Positions 703 through 9,404 of a stretch of 11,208 bases of DNA are shown piece after piece. Below the pieces are notes generated by a model. It did not search any database. It saw nothing but the letters and a program-made list of their open reading frames with translations, and had not been told where the DNA came from. The position numbers were made by a program, and so were the translations under genes. Origin of the DNA: Anaerolineae bacterium (lineage in GTDB: Bacteria > Chloroflexota > Anaerolineae > UBA1429). The stretch covers positions 1 through 11,208 of the forward strand of contig JAFGLK010000236.1 in NCBI GenBank assembly GCA_016928125.1, given 5' to 3'. How positions within the stretch are numbered: position 1 is the first letter of the stretch; every line of letters starts with the position of its first letter.

Positions 703-1536
703 CTATGCGAGGCCCAGCAAGCCCAAGGCATCCCGCTGGATGATCCCCTCGATCTCGTCTCTGGGAATGCGCGGCAGACGCGTGCCCTCGACGATGGCGT
801 TCACGCTGCGCAAGCTATCCAGCGTCTCCTGGGGTGTGGTGACTGGAAAGTCAGTGCCGAAGAAGACCTTGTGCAGCTGCGCGTACTCCATGCAGAGCAC
901 CAGCGCATTGTAGAACTGCCACGGGCGGTAGAACTGGGCCGAGATGTCGGTGTAGACATGGGGATGCTTGCGGATCAAGGCGATGGTATCGGGCTGCCAG
1001 GGATGGCCGAAATGCGCCACCACGACGCGCAACTCGGGGAACGCCGTAGCGACTTCGTCCAGCGCCATGGGATGAGCATAGCGCAGCGGCGCCGTTCGTC
1101 GGGGCGAGGTGGCTTGATGGAAAGCGACCGGCAGGCCACGACGCTCCGCATAGCTATAGATCGCCAGGGCACGTGGGTCCATGGGATCATGATCCATGTA
1201 GTGCGGGCTGAGCTTGACGCCCTTCATCCCCAGATCCTCCACCGCGCGCACCAGCTCATCCATCGCTCCGGCATGGTTGGGGTCCACCGAGCAAAAAGGC
1301 ACGATCTTCTCCGGCCACATGGCGGCCCAGCGCGCGATATCGTCGTTGGGCGTATGCGCACCAGAGGCCAGGCCCAGCAGGACCAGCTTGTCCACGGGGG
1401 CCATGGCGGCCTGGAATTCGGCCCAGCCGATGTTCCGTTTGTATTGCTTGTCGGCGCGATAGCCTGGCGCGCTGAGCAGCGCCTCGGACTGGGTCTCCAG
1501 CTGCGTGGGCGTATGCACGTGAACATCAACGATCAT
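703..1536 (-). CDS. Amidohydrolase family protein (COG2159, TIM-barrel metal-dependent hydrolase)
   Basis: A 277-residue metal-dependent hydrolase of the amidohydrolase superfamily, in the branch that includes ACMSD-like decarboxylases and 2-pyrone-4,6-dicarboxylate hydrolases (COG2159). Visible metal-site features are the N-terminal HxH (H6, H8 in IVDVHVH), H140 (VAFHQ), H175 and H178 (VVAHFGHPW) and D229 (FGTDFPV). K108 lies in KGVKLSP, a segment conserved in this branch. Substrate cannot be assigned; the family performs hydrolysis or nonoxidative decarboxylation on small carboxylated or cyclic substrates, and the protein is probably cytoplasmic because no signal peptide is seen. The ATG at 1536 was chosen because it starts directly at the beta-1 strand carrying HxH and has AGGAGGT 5 bases upstream. 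An in-frame ATG at 1623 would add 29 low-complexity residues reaching back through a stem-loop. It lies downstream of the CHAD gene on the same strand with a 120-base gap. Confidence 0.88.
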   Translation of the reverse strand: MIVDVHVHTPTQLETQSEALLSAPGYRADKQYKRNIGWAEFQAAMAPVDKLVLLGLASGAHTPNDDIARWAAMWPEKIVPFCSVDPNHAGAMDELVRAVEDLGMKGVKLSPHYMDHDPMDPRALAIYSYAERRGLPVAFHQATSPRRTAPLRYAHPMALDEVATAFPELRVVVAHFGHPWQPDTIALIRKHPHVYTDISAQFYRPWQFYNALVLCMEYAQLHKVFFGTDFPVTTPQETLDSLRSVNAIVEGTRLPRIPRDEIEGIIQRDALGLLGLA

Positions 1537-1541
1537 GAGAT

Positions 1542-1548
1542 ACCTCCT
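1542..1548 (-). promoter_or_regulatory. Ribosome binding site deciding the amidohydrolase start
   Basis: AGGAGGT on the minus strand, 5 bases before the ATG at 1536-1534. This near-perfect Shine-Dalgarno rejects the longer in-frame start at 1623. Confidence 0.8.
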
Positions 1549-1595
1549 GTGCCTGCTCTGGGCCGCTTCTGGCTGGGATGTGCCTGGGATGGGAA

Positions 1596-1645
1596 CCCAT
1601 GGCATAGTTGAGCGCTGGCCCATCCGACCTCAACCACGCCATGGG
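1596..1645 (-). other. Long imperfect stem-loop between CHAD and amidohydrolase genes
   Basis: CCCATGGC (1596-1603) pairs with GCCATGGG (1638-1645), and GTTGAG (1607-1612) pairs with CTCAAC (1629-1634). The 3-base joints (1604-1606 and 1635-1637) contribute one further A-T pair, giving a 17-position stem with two mismatches and a 16-base loop. It starts 11 bases after the CHAD stop and ends about 60 bases before the amidohydrolase ATG. No T-run follows on the minus strand, so it is more likely an RNA processing or stabilising element, an attenuator, or a protein-binding dyad than a simple terminator. Confidence 0.5.
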
Positions 1646-1656
1646 AATGGGCTCTC

Positions 1657-3831
1657 TTACAGCCGCAGCCGGGCCAGTGCTCTGAAGGTCTTGCGCACCT
1701 GCTGCCTGGAGAAGTCACACCACAACTCGGGGAAGGTCTCCAGGCGACGATTCATCTCGTCCTCACAGGCCTCTCGGTAGGCTTTGACCCCAGGGTAGCG
1801 CCCGCTTGCGCGCCGCTCGAGAAAGGCATCGAGCATCTCGACGGCCACAGCGGCATCGTGCATCTCGCCCAGATGATCCTGCAAGGCGACCACCTCGGGG
1901 ATCAGCGCCACCACAGCCTGCGGCAGCACGTCGCTCATGAACTCCAGCCCGTAGCGCAGACGCTTGCTGTCGATGCGCAGCGCGTGCAGCAGCTCGATCG
2001 GGGCATTCTCGAGCACCGCATCGTATGCGCTCACCACGCGCCAGGCGACATACAGGAAACGGGGTGCAACCTGGCTTACCGCCCTTTCCTCCGAGGCCCA
2101 GCCCTCGGGTGTCACCAGTTCATCGAGCAGCTCACGCATGGCCTGAACCAGGCGCCTATACGTTCGCCCATCCAGATAGCGCAGCATGCGTCGACGCGAC
2201 CGCTCGCGCTGGGCGCGCCAACGTCTGAGCAATGGTTCGAGATCGACCTTCTCCCCATCTGGCGATCTATCCGCGAAGGCCTGCGCACGCGCCAGAGCCA
2301 CATCCATGTCGCGCACGTCGCCCAGCAAGCGCCCTGCCTGCCGCAACAGGTCACTGACACGCGTCACAAGCGCCCCGGTGAGATAGGGGCCGAACAGGCC
2401 CAGCGCCGAACGCATGCGTCGCGTCGCGACGCGCATGTCGTGCAATTCCTCGGGGTCCTCGCCCAGGCGCGTCCCCGCCTCGTGGTCGAGCATGCGCTGA
2501 AAGTGAAAGCGGAGCACCTTGCGCGCCGCCTCCTGCATCGAGTCCCAGGGCTGAATGCCCAGGCCGCTTTGGGCCTTCTTGGCCAGGGCCACGCCGCCGT
2601 CCTCTTGCAGCGAGCCCCACGCCAGCCGCACCGGATAGAGCATCTCCCACAGATCGGACCGCCTCTGAGCGCGCTGAGCGTGCTTGGCGGATAGGGGCCC
2701 CGAGAGGACGATGCGCACCGTCTCATCCATGGAGGACGCTTCATGGATCTCGGTCCTGGGCGGACTGTCGTCATCCAATGCGGCGGCCAGCCGGACCAGG
2801 GCGGCGATGGTCAACGTCTCTCGGCTCTGGTCCAAGGGCCAATCGTCAGGGATAACCTGGGTGATGCGCGCCGGGGTGATCTTGCGGCGATGGAGGTAGG
2901 CCGCGGCCGCCACGGTGCGCTGCTGGACGGCGTCCAACTCTTCGATCGAGAGGCGCAGGAGTACGTCGCGACGTGCCTCATGAGAGGATCGTCGGCGGGC
3001 CCGGCCGCCCAGGTTATGCAACACGGCGGCTGTGTGGAGCAACGGGCGTTGAGCCTGCCCCAATCCGTGGATTTCCTGCAGCAGGTCAAAGAGCTGCACG
3101 GCCCTCTGGGCAACCTGCTGCGCCCGCACCCGATCGATGCCATAACGCGCCACGATCCTATCGACGCTGCTGGAACGGGCCTGTGCGAGGAGCTCGTCAT
3201 CGGAGGGGCCACTGCCTTCGATCAGGTCCAGCGCACGCCGGAGCTTGCTGCGAGACTCGGGCACGAGCCCGAAATCGTCCAATAGCACCTGATCCAACCG
3301 CTCCAGGTCTGCGACCTGGCCGCTCTCCAGCAATTCGCATTCCAACATGAAACTCGTGTGATCCAGCCCATCCGACAGGGTGCGCACCACGTCCAGCGAT
3401 AGCTCGGCCACAGGACGCCCTTCGTCCAACAACAGATGCTTGTGCCGCGCCTGCTGGATCGATACCAACCGTCGCAGGCGCCGTCCGCCCGTCAGGGCAG
3501 CCAGATTCCTGCGCAGCTCGCCCCGCGGCCAACTCGCCACATCCTCCGTACGACGCGGAAGGGTGATCTCGTATTCCGGCCGGTGGACGATAGAGCCCAC
3601 CACGCGAGCTGGCCCCTTGAGCGTCGCCAGCCAGACACCCCCCTCGGAGCGCAGGCGACAGGCCCAGGCTTGCTGCAAGAGCGCCTGGTCGCGTGTGTCC
3701 AGATAGTCGTCAGCAACCACGACCTTGCCCACGCGCTGCAAGACAAAGGACCCCAAGGCCTCCAGACGCCTCAAACGATCAAAAAGCAAGCGATCTGGGA
3801 TGAGATAGCGGGATTCGATCTCTGTGGGCAT
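1657..3831 (-). CDS. CYTH - Ppx/GppA-like HD - CHAD domain protein (polyphosphate-linked)
   Basis: A 724-residue protein with three domains. Residues 1-205 are a CYTH/triphosphate tunnel domain: E4-I-E6-S-R8 at the ExExK position, then YLDTRDQALL (43-52), LATLKGP (68-74), YEITLP (87-92) and a closing SKLRRAL. The canonical lysine of ExExK is replaced by arginine. Residues about 215-400 resemble the helical C-terminal domain of Ppx/GppA phosphatases, with LLHTAAVLHNLG (264-275; the HD pair reads H272-N273), H284, H314 and LVRLAAALDD (345-354). Residues about 425-720 are a CHAD domain with its conserved histidine helices: EELHDMRVATRRMRSAL (461-477), HALRIDSKRLRYGLEF (616-631) and QDHLGEMHDA (651-660). 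CHAD domains bind polyphosphate and CYTH enzymes cleave triphosphate or polyphosphate, so a role in polyphosphate or nucleotide handling is inferred. The start has GGGAGG 9 bases upstream. No signal peptide or membrane segment is seen. Confidence 0.9.
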   Translation of the reverse strand: MPTEIESRYLIPDRLLFDRLRRLEALGSFVLQRVGKVVVADDYLDTRDQALLQQAWACRLRSEGGVWLATLKGPARVVGSIVHRPEYEITLPRRTEDVASWPRGELRRNLAALTGGRRLRRLVSIQQARHKHLLLDEGRPVAELSLDVVRTLSDGLDHTSFMLECELLESGQVADLERLDQVLLDDFGLVPESRSKLRRALDLIEGSGPSDDELLAQARSSSVDRIVARYGIDRVRAQQVAQRAVQLFDLLQEIHGLGQAQRPLLHTAAVLHNLGGRARRRSSHEARRDVLLRLSIEELDAVQQRTVAAAAYLHRRKITPARITQVIPDDWPLDQSRETLTIAALVRLAAALDDDSPPRTEIHEASSMDETVRIVLSGPLSAKHAQRAQRRSDLWEMLYPVRLAWGSLQEDGGVALAKKAQSGLGIQPWDSMQEAARKVLRFHFQRMLDHEAGTRLGEDPEELHDMRVATRRMRSALGLFGPYLTGALVTRVSDLLRQAGRLLGDVRDMDVALARAQAFADRSPDGEKVDLEPLLRRWRAQRERSRRRMLRYLDGRTYRRLVQAMRELLDELVTPEGWASEERAVSQVAPRFLYVAWRVVSAYDAVLENAPIELLHALRIDSKRLRYGLEFMSDVLPQAVVALIPEVVALQDHLGEMHDAAVAVEMLDAFLERRASGRYPGVKAYREACEDEMNRRLETFPELWCDFSRQQVRKTFRALARLRL

Positions 3832-4788: not shown

Positions 4789-4817
4789 TTTACATGGGGT
4801 GTTATCGGTGCTAGAAT
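4789..4817 (+). promoter_or_regulatory. Sigma-70-type promoter for the BTAD regulator gene
   Basis: TTTACA (4789-4794), a 17-base spacer and TAGAAT (4812-4817) match consensus at 5 of 6 positions each with optimal spacing. The predicted start point is about 4823-4826, giving a leader of some 42 bases before the ATG at 4867. The -10 hexamer overlaps the in-frame ATG at 4816, which therefore cannot be used by this transcript. Confidence 0.72.
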
Positions 4818-4866
4818 GCCATTCGTCGACTCGGGTGATGGGTTCCTCATCGGGTGTGTGCCTCTC

Positions 4867-7800
4867 ATGAGCAGCGGATTCCCAGGATTTCCGATCATCA
4901 CGACCAAAGTGCGGCGTCCGCGTCGGCAGGCTACGCTGCTGCGGCGGGAGCGCCTGGTCAGCTTTCTGCACAACAACATCCACCACAAGCTGATCCTCGT
5001 TTCCGCGGCGGCGGGCTATGGCAAGACCTCGCTTCTGATTGATTTCGCGCACGATACAGAGCTGCCTGTCTGTTGGTATAGCCTGGATCACAACGATGCG
5101 CATGTCTTTACCTTTATCGAGTATCTGGTGGCCTCCTTCCAGCAATGCTTTCCACAGTTCGGCAAGAAGGTGCTCGAGGCCCTGCGCAGCTATTCAGGTC
5201 CCCCTGAAGCTGTGGAGCCTTTTGTGCGTCTCTTGCTCAATGAGATCGAGGAGAACACCGGTCAGTATTTCGTGTTGATCCTGGATGACTATCACCAGGT
5301 GCTTGAGAGCCCGTCGGTCAATGCGCTCCTCGATGGTCTGCTCCTTTATCTGCCCGAGCATTGCCACATCATTCTGGCCTCACGTGGGATTCCCCGACAC
5401 CTGAATCTGACCCGTCTGGTCGCTCGCCTCGAGATGCAAGGCCTGGGCGCTGAGCATCTGCGCTTCACCGACGATGAGATCGCCCAATTGTTGCGGAAGA
5501 TCGGGCGAGAGGATCTCAGCGCAGATCAGATCGCGCTGCTAGCTGAGCGCTCGGAAGGCTGGATCACGGGGGTGCTGCTGGCAGCCCGGACGAACTGGAC
5601 CGGTGCGGCCCATGATCTGCTCTACCTCACGGGCGAGACGCCAGGCGTGTTCGAGTACATGGCCACAGAGATCCTCGCAACGCAGCCCCCTGAGATCCGG
5701 CGCTTTCTGATGGGCAGCGCCCTCCTGAACGAGATGAGCCCGCCTCTGTGTGACGCCTTGCTGGATTTGAACAACTCGGCTCAGCTTTTGCGCGACATCG
5801 CGAGCGCGAGCCTCTTCACCTTCCGTCTCGATGCGGCCGAGACGCTCTATCAGTACCATCAGCTCTTTCGCGAGTTCCTGATCGCCAGGTTCCAGCAGGA
5901 GGATCGCGAAGCGTATCGACGCCTGCGACTCAAACAGGCCGAGTTGATGATTCACCACGGTCACTGGCCGCAGGCGATCGAGAGTTATCTCTCGGCGGAG
6001 GCTTACGGCGAGGCGGCCAAGGCGCTCGAGATCGTGATCAAGGACACGGTTGAGGCCGGGCAGTGGGAGATGGCCAGGGAATGGCTGGAGGCCATTCCAA
6101 AGGCGATACGTGACGAGCATCCACGCCTGTTGTTCTATCGCGGCAGGCTATTCGCCGATATGGGCGACCCGGGCGAGGCGCTGCGGCTTCTCGGCCAGGC
6201 CTATGATGCCTACATGACCCTGGGCGACGAGATCGAGGCGGCGCGCGCCCTCATCGAACGCGCCATCGTGGAGCGCTTCCAGGGCCGCTTTCGCGAGGCG
6301 ATCGAGATCTGCCAGAGGGCCTTGGCAATGGTCGGCGACCGCGACTCGCGCACCGCGATGTACGCGCTGCGGCACATCGGCATCTGTCATGACCTGCAGG
6401 GCCATCACGCCCAGGGGCTCGAGGAGATGGCCAGGGCTTTGGAGATCGCCGAGGCTGTTGGAGACGATATCAATGCGGCCTATATCACGCATGAGATCGG
6501 CGTGGCCCAGCTCTCCCAAGGGCAGTTGATGACAGCGCGTCAGCATTTCCATCGCGCCCTGCTCTACTGGCGCAAGCTCGGCAACGCGAGCACCCTCTCG
6601 ATGACCCTGCAGGGCCTCGGCTTGGTGCACCAATACCTGGGCCAGTATGTGGAGGCGGAAAGCCGTTTGCAGGAGAGCCTCACCAAAGCGCGGCTGTCCG
6701 CCGACGCGCGCCTGGAGGCCTATGCGCTGATCAACCTGGGCGATCTCTATCGTGACGTGGGCCAATGCATCAAGGCCCACGAAAGCTACGCAGCGGCTCA
6801 GGAGATCGCCGCCGAGGCCAAACTGGCGCATCTGCTCATCTATCTTCTGATCGCTACCGGAGATACCTATCGCCTGCAGGGCGATCTGGGGCATGCTCAG
6901 CAACTCCTGGTTGAGGCAGCAGACCAGATCGATGCGCAAGAGATGGCCCAGGAGGCAGGACTGTGCCAACTTGCTTTGGGCGCTGTTGCTGCGCAGCAAG
7001 GCTCACTCGAGACGGCCTACACGCGCTTGTCGCTGGCTCTGGATCTATTCACAGGGATCGGCTCAGAGCGAGAGGCTGCCCGTGCGCGCCTCCAGTTGGC
7101 CCGCCTGGCGCACACGGAAAGACATGAGCAGGCGACCCGGGCACACTTGCGAGAGGTGGCCCGTCTGGTGAGGGCGCTGGGATCTCACCAGTTTATCGTG
7201 GCCGAAGGTCCTGCCATGTTGGATCTGCTACGTTACGCAGAGGACCAGATCCAGGATGACCAGCCACCCATGACCACCCTCTGGGTCAGCCCGCGTAACG
7301 AGATCGAGGAGCTGTTTGTGTCGGGGCCAGCGCAACCGTCCTCTGTGTCAACCATCAAGGCGCCCATCGAGCTTTTGGGCCTTCAGGGCGGGCAGGTGCT
7401 CACCCATGGAGAGCCAGTCACCTGCTGGGAATCGGATTCGGCGCGCATCATGGCTTTCTTGTTCGCCTCATTCCCGCAGGGCCTGTCGCGTGACCGGGCC
7501 ACCGAGATGCTCTGGCCAGAGGTCAGCCTCGATCGTGGCAATAGTCTGTTCCACTCGACGCTCTATCGGCTGCGACAGGCGCTCGGCAAGGACTTTGTCA
7601 TACGCCGCGATGGGGCCTACCGCGTGAATCCCGACACGGGCTATCGCTACGACGTGTCCGAGTTTGAGGGTCTGGGCGAGCTGGGCAAGGGGAGCGACGG
7701 CCTGGCACACATCGCCCGTCTGCAGGCCATTACGCTCTATCGCAGCCCATTTCTAGAGAGTTGCGATCTCGACTGGTGCTTTGAGCTGCGCGAGACGCTG

Positions 7801-8097
7801 GCCGCCACCATGACCAATCTGCTCCTGAAAGAAGCCCAATACCAGGCCAGAACCGATGCCCTGGTCCGGGCTGAGGAGCTCTACCAGCGCTTGCTCCGCA
7901 TCGATCCCCTGGACGAGCGTGCCCATCGGGGCATCATGTGGTGTCGAGCCAAGCACAATGACCGCTCGGGCGCACTCAGGCAGCTTCGTGAATGTCAGCA
8001 GATCCTCGAGGAAGAGCTGGGCGTCGAGCCCAGCCCTGAGACCGTTGCGCTGGGCGAGACCTTGCTCTCTGGCGATCTGGGGCCGTTGCCTGACTGA
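4867..8097 (+). CDS. MalT-like NTPase / TPR / winged-helix / BTAD transcriptional activator
   Basis: A large (about 1076-residue) STAND-type regulator. The N-terminus has the usual MalT-like entry (IITTKVRRPR, residues 10-19), a Walker A of the MalT type (SAAAGYGKTS, 46-55), Walker B (VLILDDYH, 136-143) and the YHQLFREFL segment (330-338) that closes the NTPase/arm region. Residues about 360-790 are tandem TPR-like helical repeats. Residues about 830-925 form an OmpR-like winged helix with recognition helix NSLFHSTLYRLRQAL (892-906). Residues about 930-1065 are a bacterial transcriptional activator domain (BTAD) ending in the typical EELGVEPSPET. This inverts the AfsR/SARP order, where the DNA-binding part comes first. 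A ligand binding the TPR/NTPase part is expected to switch on DNA binding. The start was set at 4867 because the upstream promoter excludes 4816; GTG at 4858 is an alternative, and no strong Shine-Dalgarno is seen for either. Its likely target is the CGTGAG repeat block just downstream. Confidence 0.9.
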   Translation: MSSGFPGFPIITTKVRRPRRQATLLRRERLVSFLHNNIHHKLILVSAAAGYGKTSLLIDFAHDTELPVCWYSLDHNDAHVFTFIEYLVASFQQCFPQFGKKVLEALRSYSGPPEAVEPFVRLLLNEIEENTGQYFVLILDDYHQVLESPSVNALLDGLLLYLPEHCHIILASRGIPRHLNLTRLVARLEMQGLGAEHLRFTDDEIAQLLRKIGREDLSADQIALLAERSEGWITGVLLAARTNWTGAAHDLLYLTGETPGVFEYMATEILATQPPEIRRFLMGSALLNEMSPPLCDALLDLNNSAQLLRDIASASLFTFRLDAAETLYQYHQLFREFLIARFQQEDREAYRRLRLKQAELMIHHGHWPQAIESYLSAEAYGEAAKALEIVIKDTVEAGQWEMAREWLEAIPKAIRDEHPRLLFYRGRLFADMGDPGEALRLLGQAYDAYMTLGDEIEAARALIERAIVERFQGRFREAIEICQRALAMVGDRDSRTAMYALRHIGICHDLQGHHAQGLEEMARALEIAEAVGDDINAAYITHEIGVAQLSQGQLMTARQHFHRALLYWRKLGNASTLSMTLQGLGLVHQYLGQYVEAESRLQESLTKARLSADARLEAYALINLGDLYRDVGQCIKAHESYAAAQEIAAEAKLAHLLIYLLIATGDTYRLQGDLGHAQQLLVEAADQIDAQEMAQEAGLCQLALGAVAAQQGSLETAYTRLSLALDLFTGIGSEREAARARLQLARLAHTERHEQATRAHLREVARLVRALGSHQFIVAEGPAMLDLLRYAEDQIQDDQPPMTTLWVSPRNEIEELFVSGPAQPSSVSTIKAPIELLGLQGGQVLTHGEPVTCWESDSARIMAFLFASFPQGLSRDRATEMLWPEVSLDRGNSLFHSTLYRLRQALGKDFVIRRDGAYRVNPDTGYRYDVSEFEGLGELGKGSDGLAHIARLQAITLYRSPFLESCDLDWCFELRETLAATMTNLLLKEAQYQARTDALVRAEELYQRLLRIDPLDERAHRGIMWCRAKHNDRSGALRQLRECQQILEEELGVEPSPETVALGETLLSGDLGPLPD

Positions 8098-8116
8098 TCC
8101 CTCCTCACTTCGCCTG

Positions 8117-8152
8117 AGCGTGCGTCGCAGATCCCGCGATGCGCGCTTTTTT
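8117..8152 (+). terminator. Intrinsic terminator after the BTAD regulator
   Basis: GCGTGCGTCGC (8118-8128) pairs with GCGATGCGCGC (8136-8146) over 11 positions including two G-U pairs, with a 7-base loop, followed immediately by TTTTTT (8147-8152). A8117-T8147 can extend the stem. It separates the regulator transcript from the small genes downstream, so those need their own promoter. Confidence 0.88.
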
Positions 8153-8174
8153 CATGCACGGAATCCGCACCCGC

Positions 8175-8191
8175 CGTGAGTTTTTCGTGAG
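8175..8191 (+). promoter_or_regulatory. Two CGTGAG direct repeats at 11-bp period (putative BTAD/SARP operator)
   Basis: CGTGAG occurs at 8175-8180 and again at 8186-8191, separated by TTTTT, so the centre-to-centre distance is exactly one helical turn (11 bp). A degraded third copy in phase, TCTGAT, lies at 8197-8202. Known SARP activators bind short direct repeats spaced 11 bp and placed over the -35 region, with the last repeat shortly before the -10; here the second repeat ends 10 bases before TATCAT. The BTAD regulator encoded immediately upstream is the obvious candidate to bind. Confidence 0.62.
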
Positions 8192-8198
8192 AACCCTC

Positions 8199-8207
8199 TG
8201 ATATCAT
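8199..8207 (+). promoter_or_regulatory. Extended -10 promoter element for the small-peptide gene
   Basis: TGA-TATCAT matches the extended -10 pattern TGn-TATAAT with one mismatch. No proper -35 hexamer precedes it; the -35 region is occupied by the CGTGAG repeats, as expected for an activator-dependent promoter. Transcription would start near 8214. Confidence 0.55.
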
Positions 8208-8242
8208 AGGGGCACGTTGAGCGTTCGGGGTCAGGGGGGGAC

Positions 8243-8335
8243 ATGAAAAAGGCTTACTACTCGATTTTGTACATCGTGCTCTCGATCGCGGCTTTGGTCG
8301 TGGCCAGTGGCGCCCCGGTGCCCCACGGTCGCTGA
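8243..8335 (+). CDS. Small exported-peptide candidate (30 residues)
   Basis: A 30-codon open frame beginning MKKAYYSILY and ending GAPVPHGR. It has a strong purine-rich ribosome site (AG followed by a run of G at 8233-8240, two bases before ATG). The product has a positively charged N-end (K2, K3), a hydrophobic core from about residue 7 to 21 and a small-residue region; signal peptidase I could cut after A21 (VVA), leaving the 9-residue tail SGAPVPHGR. Cutting after A24 is unlikely because P25 follows. It is the first gene after the putative BTAD-controlled promoter and lies 81 bases before the DUF5317-like gene. It is not recognised as a named family; a secreted signal peptide, a small membrane protein or a leader peptide for the downstream gene are all possible. 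Confidence 0.6.
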   Translation: MKKAYYSILYIVLSIAALVVASGAPVPHGR

Positions 8336-8416
8336 GGTAGCCGAGAGGGCCCTTAACAATCGAAACGTCCCGGATCAGAGGAACGCTCTGCGGCACAGCA
8401 GGGGGGCGGCCAGCGT

Positions 8417-8995
8417 ATGATTCTGCTGATAGCGGTGGTGCTATCGCTCCTGATCGCGTTGCTGCGGGGAGGCCGGCTTGAGCGGCTGGCTGAGATCTCA
8501 TTCCGCTATGGTTGGCTGGCCCTTGTGGCCCTGGGTATGCAGATTTTGCTCACCGGGAGGCTGCTTCCCGATCGGCTGATGCCGGTCAGATTTCGAATTG
8601 CTCTGCTGCTCGGGTCGCATCTGCTGCTTCTGCTGGTGGTGGTCGCCAATTATCGGCTTCCGGGGATGCCACTCATCGGCCTGGGCCTGGCACTGAACCT
8701 GACCGTCATGCTGGCCAATGGTGGTTGGATGCCGGTCACCATGGAGGCCTTGGAGGCAGCCCAACTCGATCATCTGGTGTGGGAGACGGATGCGGGCGCG
8801 AGGGTGATGGGTTGGAAGAACCTGGTGCTCTCGCGAGGTGAAACCCGCTTGTGGATACTGAGTGACGTGATCGTGGTCTCTTTCCTATTCCGTACTCTTG
8901 TGAGCCTTGGTGACATCGCCCTGGCGTTGGGAGTATTCATCCTGTTCCAACGCACGATGAAGCGGCAGGCTGTCACTCAGCGACCTGATGGCTGA
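8417..8995 (+). CDS. DUF5317-like integral membrane protein
   Basis: A 192-residue, very hydrophobic protein with about five predicted membrane segments (approximately residues 2-16, 31-47, 60-77, 83-100 and 145-177, the last perhaps two short helices). The ANGGWMP motif (residues 100-106) after the fourth segment, followed by a short extramembrane stretch to about 145 and a closing hydrophobic hairpin, matches what I recognise as DUF5317, a family of unknown function. The basic tail (KRQ, residues 182-184) suggests a cytoplasmic C-terminus. ATG at 8417 follows a G-rich run at 8401-8409. Placed between the peptide gene and the NHLP-like gene on the same strand, with gaps of 81 and 52 bases, it is likely cotranscribed. 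A role in export or sensing of the neighbouring peptides is inference only. Confidence 0.75.
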   Translation: MILLIAVVLSLLIALLRGGRLERLAEISFRYGWLALVALGMQILLTGRLLPDRLMPVRFRIALLLGSHLLLLLVVVANYRLPGMPLIGLGLALNLTVMLANGGWMPVTMEALEAAQLDHLVWETDAGARVMGWKNLVLSRGETRLWILSDVIVVSFLFRTLVSLGDIALALGVFILFQRTMKRQAVTQRPDG

Positions 8996-9019
8996 TTGAA
9001 ATGGACATCTTTGTTTCAA
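8996..9019 (+). other. Small inverted repeat before the NHLP-like gene
   Basis: TTGAAA (8996-9001) and TTTCAA (9014-9019) form a perfect 6-bp inverted repeat with a 12-base centre, directly after the DUF5317-like stop. TTGAAA could serve as a -35, but no acceptable -10 lies 16-18 bases downstream. It may be a weak operator or chance. Confidence 0.25.
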
Positions 9020-9034
9020 GATTGTAGGTGTCGT

Positions 9035-9040
9035 AAGGAG
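9035..9040 (+). promoter_or_regulatory. Ribosome binding site deciding the NHLP-like start
   Basis: AAGGAG lies 7 bases before ATG 9048 but only 1 base before ATG 9042, so the second ATG is the functional start. Confidence 0.75.
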
Positions 9041-9047
9041 TATGAGC

Positions 9048-9305
9048 ATGGCTTATGAGAGGTTGCAGGCTGTTGTTGGCACAGCGCTTATCGATTCTGG
9101 CTTTCGTCGCAGCCTCTTGGCCAGGTCGTTCGGCGTCTTGGCTGAATTCGATTTGAGCTCTGAGGAGGTGGCCGCCGTCATGTCGGTTGAGGCCGACACA
9201 CTGCAAGAGTTCGCGAGCCAGCTGCATCAGTGGATGGTTCGGGAGACGGCGTCTCACATTTTGCGCAGCAGGCCGATGGCCTTCCCTGTGGCCGTCATGG
9301 CCTGA
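9048..9305 (+). CDS. NHLP-clan (Os1348/Franean1_4349-like) RiPP-precursor-like small protein
   Basis: An 85-residue protein. The first 60 or so residues follow the leader-type pattern I recognise from Os1348/Franean1_4349-family members of the NHLP clan: an opening helix (AYERLQAVVGTALIDSGFR), an FRRSLLA segment, a short FDLSSEEV turn, and then a helix of the form VEADTLQEFASQLHQWM. These leaders derive from nitrile-hydratase-alpha-like folds and usually precede a modified core peptide. The remaining tail (after VRE, ending MAFPVAVMA) has no cysteine and few Ser/Thr, so lanthionine or thiazole chemistry is not obvious, and no modification enzyme or transporter is in the window. The start at 9048 is chosen by Shine-Dalgarno spacing. 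It closes the small-gene cluster and is followed by two hairpins. It may be a true precursor or a leader-fold protein with another role. Confidence 0.65.
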   Translation: MAYERLQAVVGTALIDSGFRRSLLARSFGVLAEFDLSSEEVAAVMSVEADTLQEFASQLHQWMVRETASHILRSRPMAFPVAVMA

Positions 9306-9310
9306 CGACC

Positions 9311-9328
9311 GCGGCGCACAAGCGCCGC
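9311..9328 (+). other. Hairpin just after the NHLP-like gene
   Basis: GCGGCGC (9311-9317) and GCGCCGC (9322-9328) form a perfect 7-bp stem with a 4-base ACAA loop, 5 bases past the stop. No T-run follows, so it is better seen as a 3'-end protecting structure upstream of the true terminator. Confidence 0.5.
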
Positions 9329-9356
9329 CTGATCTAGCCAAATCCCCCCACATCCC

Positions 9357-9404
9357 AGGCGCGCAGCTTTCTCCCCCCCGAGGGCTGCGCGCCTCTTCTT
9401 TTTC
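9357..9404 (+). terminator. Intrinsic terminator closing the small-gene cluster
   Basis: AGGCGCGCAGC (9357-9367) and GCTGCGCGCCT (9384-9394) pair perfectly over 11 bp around a 16-base loop rich in C, followed by the T-rich tail TCTTCTTTTT (up to 9404). The T-run is on the plus-strand side only, so it serves the small genes; it lies 31 bases beyond the stop of the converging glycosyltransferase-like gene. Confidence 0.85.

Follow-up and report, generated by a model that had tools for sequence, protein, structure and literature searches.

A conserved activator-peptide-DUF5317 cassette of Anaerolineae looks like an undescribed peptide-signalling circuit

Introduction

Communication by peptides that are read by tetratricopeptide repeat (TPR) regulators is known chiefly from Bacillota. 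In RRNPP (or RRNPPA) systems such as PlcR-PapR, NprR-NprX and Rgg-SHP, the receptors combine a TPR array with an N-terminal helix-turn-helix (HTH) or Rap-type domain, and the cytoplasmic regulator adjoins a small gene for an exported peptide. A similar neighbourhood was found in an 11,208-nucleotide (nt) stretch of DNA from an Anaerolineae bacterium of the Chloroflexota (contig JAFGLK010000236.1 of assembly GCA_016928125.1), the whole of which was analysed and is called the window here. In it, a large TPR-containing activator is followed on the same strand by genes for a peptide of 30 amino acids (aa), a DUF5317 membrane protein and a small NHLP-domain protein. This cassette looks like an undescribed peptide-signalling circuit, with the peptide as its putative signal.

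The cassette departs from the RRNPP systems in its receptor, a MalT-type nucleoside triphosphatase (NTPase) with a C-terminal BTAD and a ligand binding that is predicted, and likewise in its peptide family, its added DUF5317 and NHLP genes and its phylum. Streptomyces antibiotic regulatory proteins (SARPs) carry the DNA-binding/BTAD region at the N-terminus, whereas here this region is C-terminal and the NTPase N-terminal. With SARPs and their large relatives (SARP-LAL), such as AfsR and PimR of Streptomyces, the activator shares the BTAD and direct repeats phased by about 11 bp near the -35/-10 elements, to which it is predicted to bind. The classical SARP site is built of 11-bp direct-repeat units that cover the -35 region (PMC10972967). 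The presumed target here is a small peptide gene and not an antibiotic cluster. The N-terminal NTPase and MalT-like TPR region resemble those of MalT and the large ATP-binding LuxR-type (LAL) regulators, but a BTAD replaces the LuxR-type HTH at the C-terminus. The last gene resembles the NHLP/Os1348 leader family of ribosomally synthesized and post-translationally modified peptides (RiPPs) in that its NHLP domain passes the NCBIfam cut-off; it differs in a short or absent tail and in the lack of recognised maturation genes. In titles and abstract openings of the literature on BTAD, SARP and TPR regulators, on Chloroflexi and Anaerolineae and on peptide signals, nothing described this gene set, and DUF5317 was not mentioned in the literature searched, where most subscription papers are missing.

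Organization of the Cassette

The following features were read in the window.

4789..4817, + strand: promoter-like match 5' of the activator, at chance level
4867..8097, + strand: activator with MalT-type NTPase, TPR array, C-terminal winged-helix-like segment and BTAD; 4867 is the likely start
8116..8148, + strand: terminator-like stem-loop and T-run directly 3' of the activator
8175..8191, + strand: direct repeat CGTGAG-N5-CGTGAG, spacing 11, the presumed activator operator
8199..8207, + strand: extended -10 TGATATCAT, read by eye (TG at 8199-8200, hexamer at 8202-8207)
8243..8335, + strand: 30-aa GAP peptide MKKAYYSILYIVLSIAALVVASGAPVPHGR; candidate product after predicted cleavage, SGAPVPHGR
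8417..8995, + strand: DUF5317 membrane protein, 192 aa (PF17248)
9042..9305, + strand: NHLP-domain (Os1348 family) small protein, 87 aa (NF038399)
9357..9394, + strand: terminator-like stem-loop and T-run at the cassette end

The initial annotation had drawn a self-contained cassette on one strand, and its activator, terminator, phased operator, peptide, DUF5317 and NHLP elements were all recovered in place. The promoter that it set at 4789 did not hold up, with one match in the region scanned against 1.1 expected by chance. The two stem-loop/T-run sites of the window compare with a mean of 2.8 in shuffled sequence, so their count is not above chance; among relatives, 38 of 80 loci have a terminator-like stem no more than 200 nt 3' of the activator, against 1.0 expected from mononucleotide shuffles.

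Conservation of the Cassette

A DUF5317 profile of 40 rows found 217 relatives in the genome collection, and the best 80 loci (numbered with the prefix L; genomes with G) were kept. In 43 of these 80 loci (44 with the window included) a BTAD match was found on the same strand, no more than 2 kb upstream. A peptide built like that of the window was read in the gap in 43 of those 44 loci, with none in L031 and a variant in L062; the peptides of L058 and L061 have GAL in place of GAP. By per-gene profiles all four genes occur in 41 of the 80 loci and DUF5317 alone in 23, several contigs being truncated. Within cassette relatives, which come from Anaerolineae-type genomes, DUF5317 identity falls to about 30% while the order is kept. 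The gene order therefore extends beyond close strains, and the objection that the neighbourhood might not be conserved does not apply.

To lessen circularity, a peptide alignment (A2) was searched against 249 genomes of the same class at E ≤ 0.001, and 76 of them gave a match. Fifty-nine regions were taken from 57 peptide-positive genomes, leaving out 13 genomes already sampled and 6 with weak matches (E 3e-4 to 9e-4); 46 of the regions are independent, and the tallies exclude the other 13, which duplicate loci of the first set. The co-occurrence expected by the initial annotation was borne out in these independent loci. The activator lies within 1.5 kb upstream in 38 of the 45 loci with at least 600 nt of room; it is out of reach in L162, L166, L170, L171, L206, L207 and L210, and L170 has one about 2.2 kb upstream. 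With at least 1200 nt downstream (n = 42), NHLP follows in 37 loci, DUF5317 in 32, both in 30 and neither in 3 (L180, L206 and L210, the last a weak match). All four genes are found in 29 of the 41 loci with room on both sides.

At the genome level, PF17248 is present in 76 of the same 249 genomes, and 72 hold both peptide and DUF5317. When the 31 genomes contributing to the models are left out, the remaining 218 comprise 43 with both, 4 with the peptide only and 2 with DUF5317 only (Fisher p = 2e-38, phylogeny ignored). Three of the peptide-only cases (G127, G138, G221) are weak matches inside long frames and the fourth (G232) is a real one at a contig end; G224, a DUF5317-only genome, has a divergent peptide-like open reading frame (ORF) in the expected gap. 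Seven of the 42 loci carry peptide and NHLP with no adjoining DUF5317, four of them with an activator in reach (L152, L155, L159, L168), and all seven genomes carry DUF5317 elsewhere. Six second DUF5317 places were examined, and two are sister cassettes of the type described below (L234, L235). By comparison of sequences, then, the cassette is shown to be a conserved unit with tight linkage of peptide and DUF5317. The label "self-contained" is only partly apt: it does not hold for the seven genomes with DUF5317 elsewhere, nor for the 50 of 75 relatives in which a signalling gene follows.

The Peptide

The peptides share one design: a charged N-terminus, a hydrophobic core, small residues, the GAP motif and a short, variable, Gly-rich tail. 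In a unique set of 195, made up of the locus peptides and the 120 clusters listed among 184 in the database, [GA][AG]P is found in 193. The exported look that the initial annotation had noted is conserved, with G, A or S at the putative signal peptidase I -1 position in 191 of 193 peptides, the export signal being judged from the peptide sequence. Tails are 5-9 residues long in 168 peptides, and 168 different tails occur among the 193. Cys-ending tails (e.g., GAPICIMC, GAPFCWTC) were seen in L011, L021, L157, L187 and L194, and also in L032, L179, L181 and L202; they hint at a cross-linked or modified form of the peptide in several loci. Database relatives carry no Pfam domain and are hypothetical where named, among the 120 matches listed, and an NCBIfam search of 30 of 50 hand-chosen peptides met five families at chance level (best E 0.016).

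Judged from its substitution pattern, the peptide is translated and constrained as a protein. In 16 non-overlapping pairs picked by nucleotide identity, differences at codon positions 1/2/3 numbered 125/72/246, and the third position was the most variable in 15 of the 16. The proportion of synonymous differences exceeded that of nonsynonymous ones (pS > pN) in 34 of 34 pairs, with means of 0.29 and 0.06; these pairs overlap, and their choice at ≥70% protein identity favours such a result.

Altogether, 107 coding copies were parsed over 93 loci. More than one copy is present in 13 loci, with neighbouring copies in 12, the parsing having taken three of the five copies of L025 and two of the three of L190. 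L032 has two activators, each with its own peptide copy. Twenty genomes chosen for holding a locus mostly have one strong peptide locus each, and G020 has two. Tandem propeptides reportedly occur in RRNPP-type systems too (PMC11343458). Five tandem peptide genes, the last four near-identical, were observed at L025:9137-9866.

The Phased Operator

The window repeats CGTGAG at 8175-8180 and 8186-8191, 11 nt from start to start; the -10 hexamer begins 10 nt after the second repeat, and the peptide start lies 35 nt past the hexamer. An 11-bp-phased operator had been proposed from this single site, and it recurs in both locus sets tested. Repeats of at least 7/8 identity 5' of the peptide were found in 42 loci (L061, a near-duplicate of L058, being omitted) 10 times at spacing 11 and 13 times at spacing 12, against 0.6 and 0.9 in dinucleotide shuffles. 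A further 37 loci, with one near-duplicate peptide omitted, gave 12 and 13 against 1.2 and 1.1, and the remaining spacings from 7 to 17 in these loci stood at 0-4. In both sets the other spacings were at or near chance.

The repeat sequence varies by clade (GTGAG, GTAAGCAC, GAAGCC, AGCTAAAC) and, by eye, broadly tracks a recognition-helix-like segment of the activator; in this comparison the automatic choice of the first peptide departs from the hand pick in a few loci (L012 and L017, with an upstream start). In the clade whose helix motif is FHQTLKRLRD or similar, no 11/12-bp repeat is evident in most members. A clade (L022, L027, L046, L019, L038) was observed to have the order peptide, then NHLP directly, then DUF5317 further 3'; no 11/12-bp repeat was found in these five loci, and their promoters share CTGAGAGATGTAAGAG- or CTGTAAGAG-like motifs. 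A search of 10 genomes with a pattern of GTGAG repeat plus -10 found 11 sites, whereas the reversed pattern found 1. Six of the 11 precede a peptide gene, and the other five precede, as read by eye, genes for a response regulator, a small LuxR-type protein, a LeuA-dimer-like protein, a long secreted-looking protein and one further protein. The phased repeat is presumed to be the operator of the activator, under SARP-like control.

The Activator, DUF5317 and NHLP Proteins

The N-terminus of the activator is a MalT-type NTPase (PDB 8bob, MalT, 4.7e-31, residues 10-391). The MalT equivalog NF003420 matches it at 1.3e-63 with 215 bits, far under the model cut-off of 537. The TPR array is recognised by TPR_12 (1.5e-23) and by PF17874 (TPR_MalT; 52 bits, cut-off 45), and the BTAD by PF03704 (58.5 bits, cut-off 22.1, 1.3e-15) over residues 945-1067 of 1076. 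A Pfam scan matched no winged-helix domain 5' of the BTAD, and at the C-terminus, where the BTAD stands, it gave no LuxR-type HTH at E up to 0.1. In relatives, a conserved segment with a recognition-helix-like motif precedes the BTAD, as read by eye.

The DUF5317 protein matches PF17248 with 104.7 bits (cut-off 25). Its AlphaFold2 model consists of helices and a small beta part (mean predicted local distance difference test score 88.6, predicted template modelling score 0.84) and found no useful match in the PDB; a search of viral contigs found no relatives.

The NHLP-domain protein passes the cut-off of NF038399 (45.8 bits, cut-off 40) and falls under that of PF14407 (36.8 bits, cut-off 48). 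Its predicted structure has five helices, followed by a variable tail that is often very short. The protein stops soon after the domain, being 70-73 aa in several loci, and in many the tail is absent or a few residues long. Neither the eight scanned proteins of the window nor the recurrent neighbour families, read by eye, included a recognised RiPP modification enzyme. Because the tail is often very short, a precursor role is unlikely, and the RiPP product that the initial annotation had envisaged for the last gene is not borne out; a stand-alone partner protein fits better.

Downstream Signalling Genes and a Sister Cassette

In 50 of 75 loci the cassette is followed on the same strand, at no more than 700 nt, by the start of a gene whose protein belongs to a response-regulator/histidine-kinase/HD-GYP cluster; beside the activator start the count is 0 of 55. 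By a simple motif, 34 of these followers are response-regulator receiver/histidine-kinase (REC/HK) proteins and 16 are HD-GYP proteins. No such follower is present in the window and its nearest relatives (L001, L003, L004, L006, L010).

DUF5317 also occurs in 37 loci without an activator, of which L002 and L054 were left out. Under a filter that admitted KW, GAP and other endings, 14 of the remaining 35 have a GA-x-x-KW-type peptide, 4 a GAP peptide and 17 none, some of them truncated. In 13 of the 14 KW loci a member of the signalling cluster lies within about 2 kb of DUF5317. Four of these signalling proteins were scanned with Pfam: all have HD_5, and MASE9 is above the cut-off in one, below it in two and absent in one. 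The KW loci come, mostly as metagenome bins, from Bipolaricaulota, Armatimonadota, Actinomycetota, Bacillota and Chloroflexota, and the terminal K-W is near-constant across phyla, some members having been picked with a KW-allowing pattern. In G007, whose genome also holds a GAP cassette, L221:1108-4127 (contig 8) carries a GTGAG operator, a LeuA-dimer-like gene, a KW-like peptide, an HD-GYP gene and DUF5317, the last with a broken or partly masked frame. As both cassette types of G007 carry related phased repeats, their sequences suggest that one regulator may act on both. A look-alike protein of about 210-260 aa was seen by eye next to KW cassettes (L040:30-668, L065:10810-11469, L221 ~1123-1884, L222:5155-5934); the L040 copy, the only one scanned, matches PF08502 LeuA_dimer with 25.8 bits (cut-off 24.9).

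In a control search, PF17248 matched Thermotoga maritima and Thermus composti (2 of 14 named genomes). T. maritima reportedly has a peptide signal, TM0504, tied to exopolysaccharide, to which the papers listed in a literature search did not point. The KW-peptide search gave no Thermotoga among the named matches listed, most matches being nameless.

A wider proposal, tentative and somewhat short of even probability, is that DUF5317 marks an ancient, undescribed peptide-signalling system, in which a GAP or GAxxKW peptide would be processed or sensed with DUF5317. The readout would be the NTPase-TPR-BTAD activator in Anaerolineae-type Chloroflexota, or a membrane-anchored HD-GYP protein, and hence cyclic-dinucleotide signalling, in Bipolaricaulota, Armatimonadota, Actinomycetota, Bacillota and other Chloroflexota. 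DUF5317 would thereby gain a first testable role, with a possible link to HD-GYP signalling across phyla.

Proposed Mechanism

The best explanation, held at about even odds, is that the cassette is an autoregulated peptide-signalling circuit with SARP-like control. We infer binding of the activator to the repeat, export and cleavage of the peptide, a service of DUF5317 to the peptide, and feedback through the TPR/NTPase part. In the first step, which the comparison of loci supports, the activator would work through the phased repeat that overlies the -35/-10 elements of the peptide gene's promoter, which would make the peptide, DUF5317 and NHLP genes a unit separate from the activator. The peptide would then be exported and probably cleaved to about 9-13 residues, consistent with its sequence. 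DUF5317, its near-obligate genomic partner, may be the membrane protein for export, maturation or sensing. Finally, the peptide, or its level at the membrane, may be sensed by the TPR/NTPase switch, which would complete a positive loop. The output could go to the signalling gene that most relatives have after the cassette, and to a few further genes preceded by the operator. In favour of the circuit are the conserved gene order and operator architecture, the constrained and sometimes repeated peptide with its diverse tails and signal-peptidase-compatible residue, the mostly single locus in a genome, the co-occurrence with DUF5317 and the signalling gene that often follows. Such a candidate circuit of Chloroflexota is directly testable, because the predicted peptide is short, the promoter element is defined and the locus is mostly single.

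Several observations weigh against this circuit. Secretion, cleavage and binding of the peptide are putative, and a Gly-rich, low-complexity tail is unusual for a specific ligand. In partial Mantel tests over 64 loci, tail and TPR distances were not associated given the NTPase (r = 0.07, p = 0.13); given the BTAD, the tail was associated with the TPR (r = 0.13, p = 0.03) and similarly with the NTPase (r = 0.12, p = 0.02), and the transmembrane part of the peptide follows the NTPase more than the TPR. Because of this similar NTPase signal and the tracking of the NTPase by the transmembrane part, phylogeny is not separable from coevolution. In the sister cassette a peptide of this kind and DUF5317 occur with no adjoining TPR activator, so the peptide may not need the receptor. 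With a looser operator pattern of 20 nt that tolerated as many as 2 mismatches, 9 sites were found in 9 genomes, against 4 for the reversed control; the wider regulon is therefore only sketched, and this pattern is not used for it. A membrane subunit would explain the near-perfect pairing with DUF5317 just as well.

Alternative Explanations

The main rival is such a non-secreted subunit. The peptide would then be a small single-helix membrane protein that joins or regulates DUF5317 and, in the sister cassette, the HD-GYP protein. The activator would only control expression of the complex, and nothing would be secreted. It is a possible explanation, clearly short of even probability. It would account for the DUF5317 present in 72 of the 76 peptide genomes, an association that holds outside the training set, and for the presence of DUF5317 elsewhere in all seven genomes with a DUF5317-less cassette. 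The conservation of GAP at the helix end agrees with it, as does the near-constant terminal K-W of the KW class, which a structural contact would explain, with the proviso that a KW-allowing pattern chose some members. However, a secreted product would account more readily for the repeated gene copies and for the 168 different tails among 193 peptides, the adjoining regulator has a TPR array, and a small residue stands at the signal-peptidase-like position in 191 of 193, all of which speak against the subunit.

It is improbable that the peptide is an antimicrobial or contact-dependent agent, with DUF5317 as immunity protein and a bacteriocin-type regulator as activator. Such a reading draws on a short exported-looking peptide next to the DUF5317 membrane protein and on the RiPP leader family of NHLP, but the locus is mostly single in a genome, of stable order and under purifying selection. 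No peptide-modification enzyme was recognised among recurrent neighbours, and PADLOC and PHROG searches of the window proteins matched the TPR region only. ABC-transporter genes do recur among the neighbours (in 12 and 6 loci), but their positions are scattered or distant. Oligopeptide-type ABC genes (binding protein and permease, by eye) were observed at L018 ~1100-3800 and in five other loci, mostly 5-9 kb upstream; these could reflect peptide re-import or chance.

Quite improbable is a circuit in which the last gene encodes a RiPP precursor and the signal is made from it, the small peptide being accessory. The NF038399 match over the cut-off and the retention of NHLP where DUF5317 is missing (7 of 42 loci) would suit it; the tail after the domain, absent or a few residues long in many loci, and the lack of a recognised maturation enzyme in the window or among recurrent neighbours do not. 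That the small ORF is a regulatory leader (an upstream ORF or attenuator) for DUF5317 and NHLP, as a short ORF in the transcript leader with its start 35 nt past the -10 hexamer might be, is very improbable indeed given the conservation at the amino-acid level, the repeated copies and the presence of the peptide when DUF5317 sits at another locus.

Neighbouring Genes

The cassette is flanked by a hexapeptide-transferase gene and a membrane-protein-like gene, both on the opposite (-) strand. Elsewhere in the window, positions 1657-3831 encode a CYTH-CHAD protein with a match to Ppx/GppA domain III in between (Pfam), perhaps an unusual arrangement.

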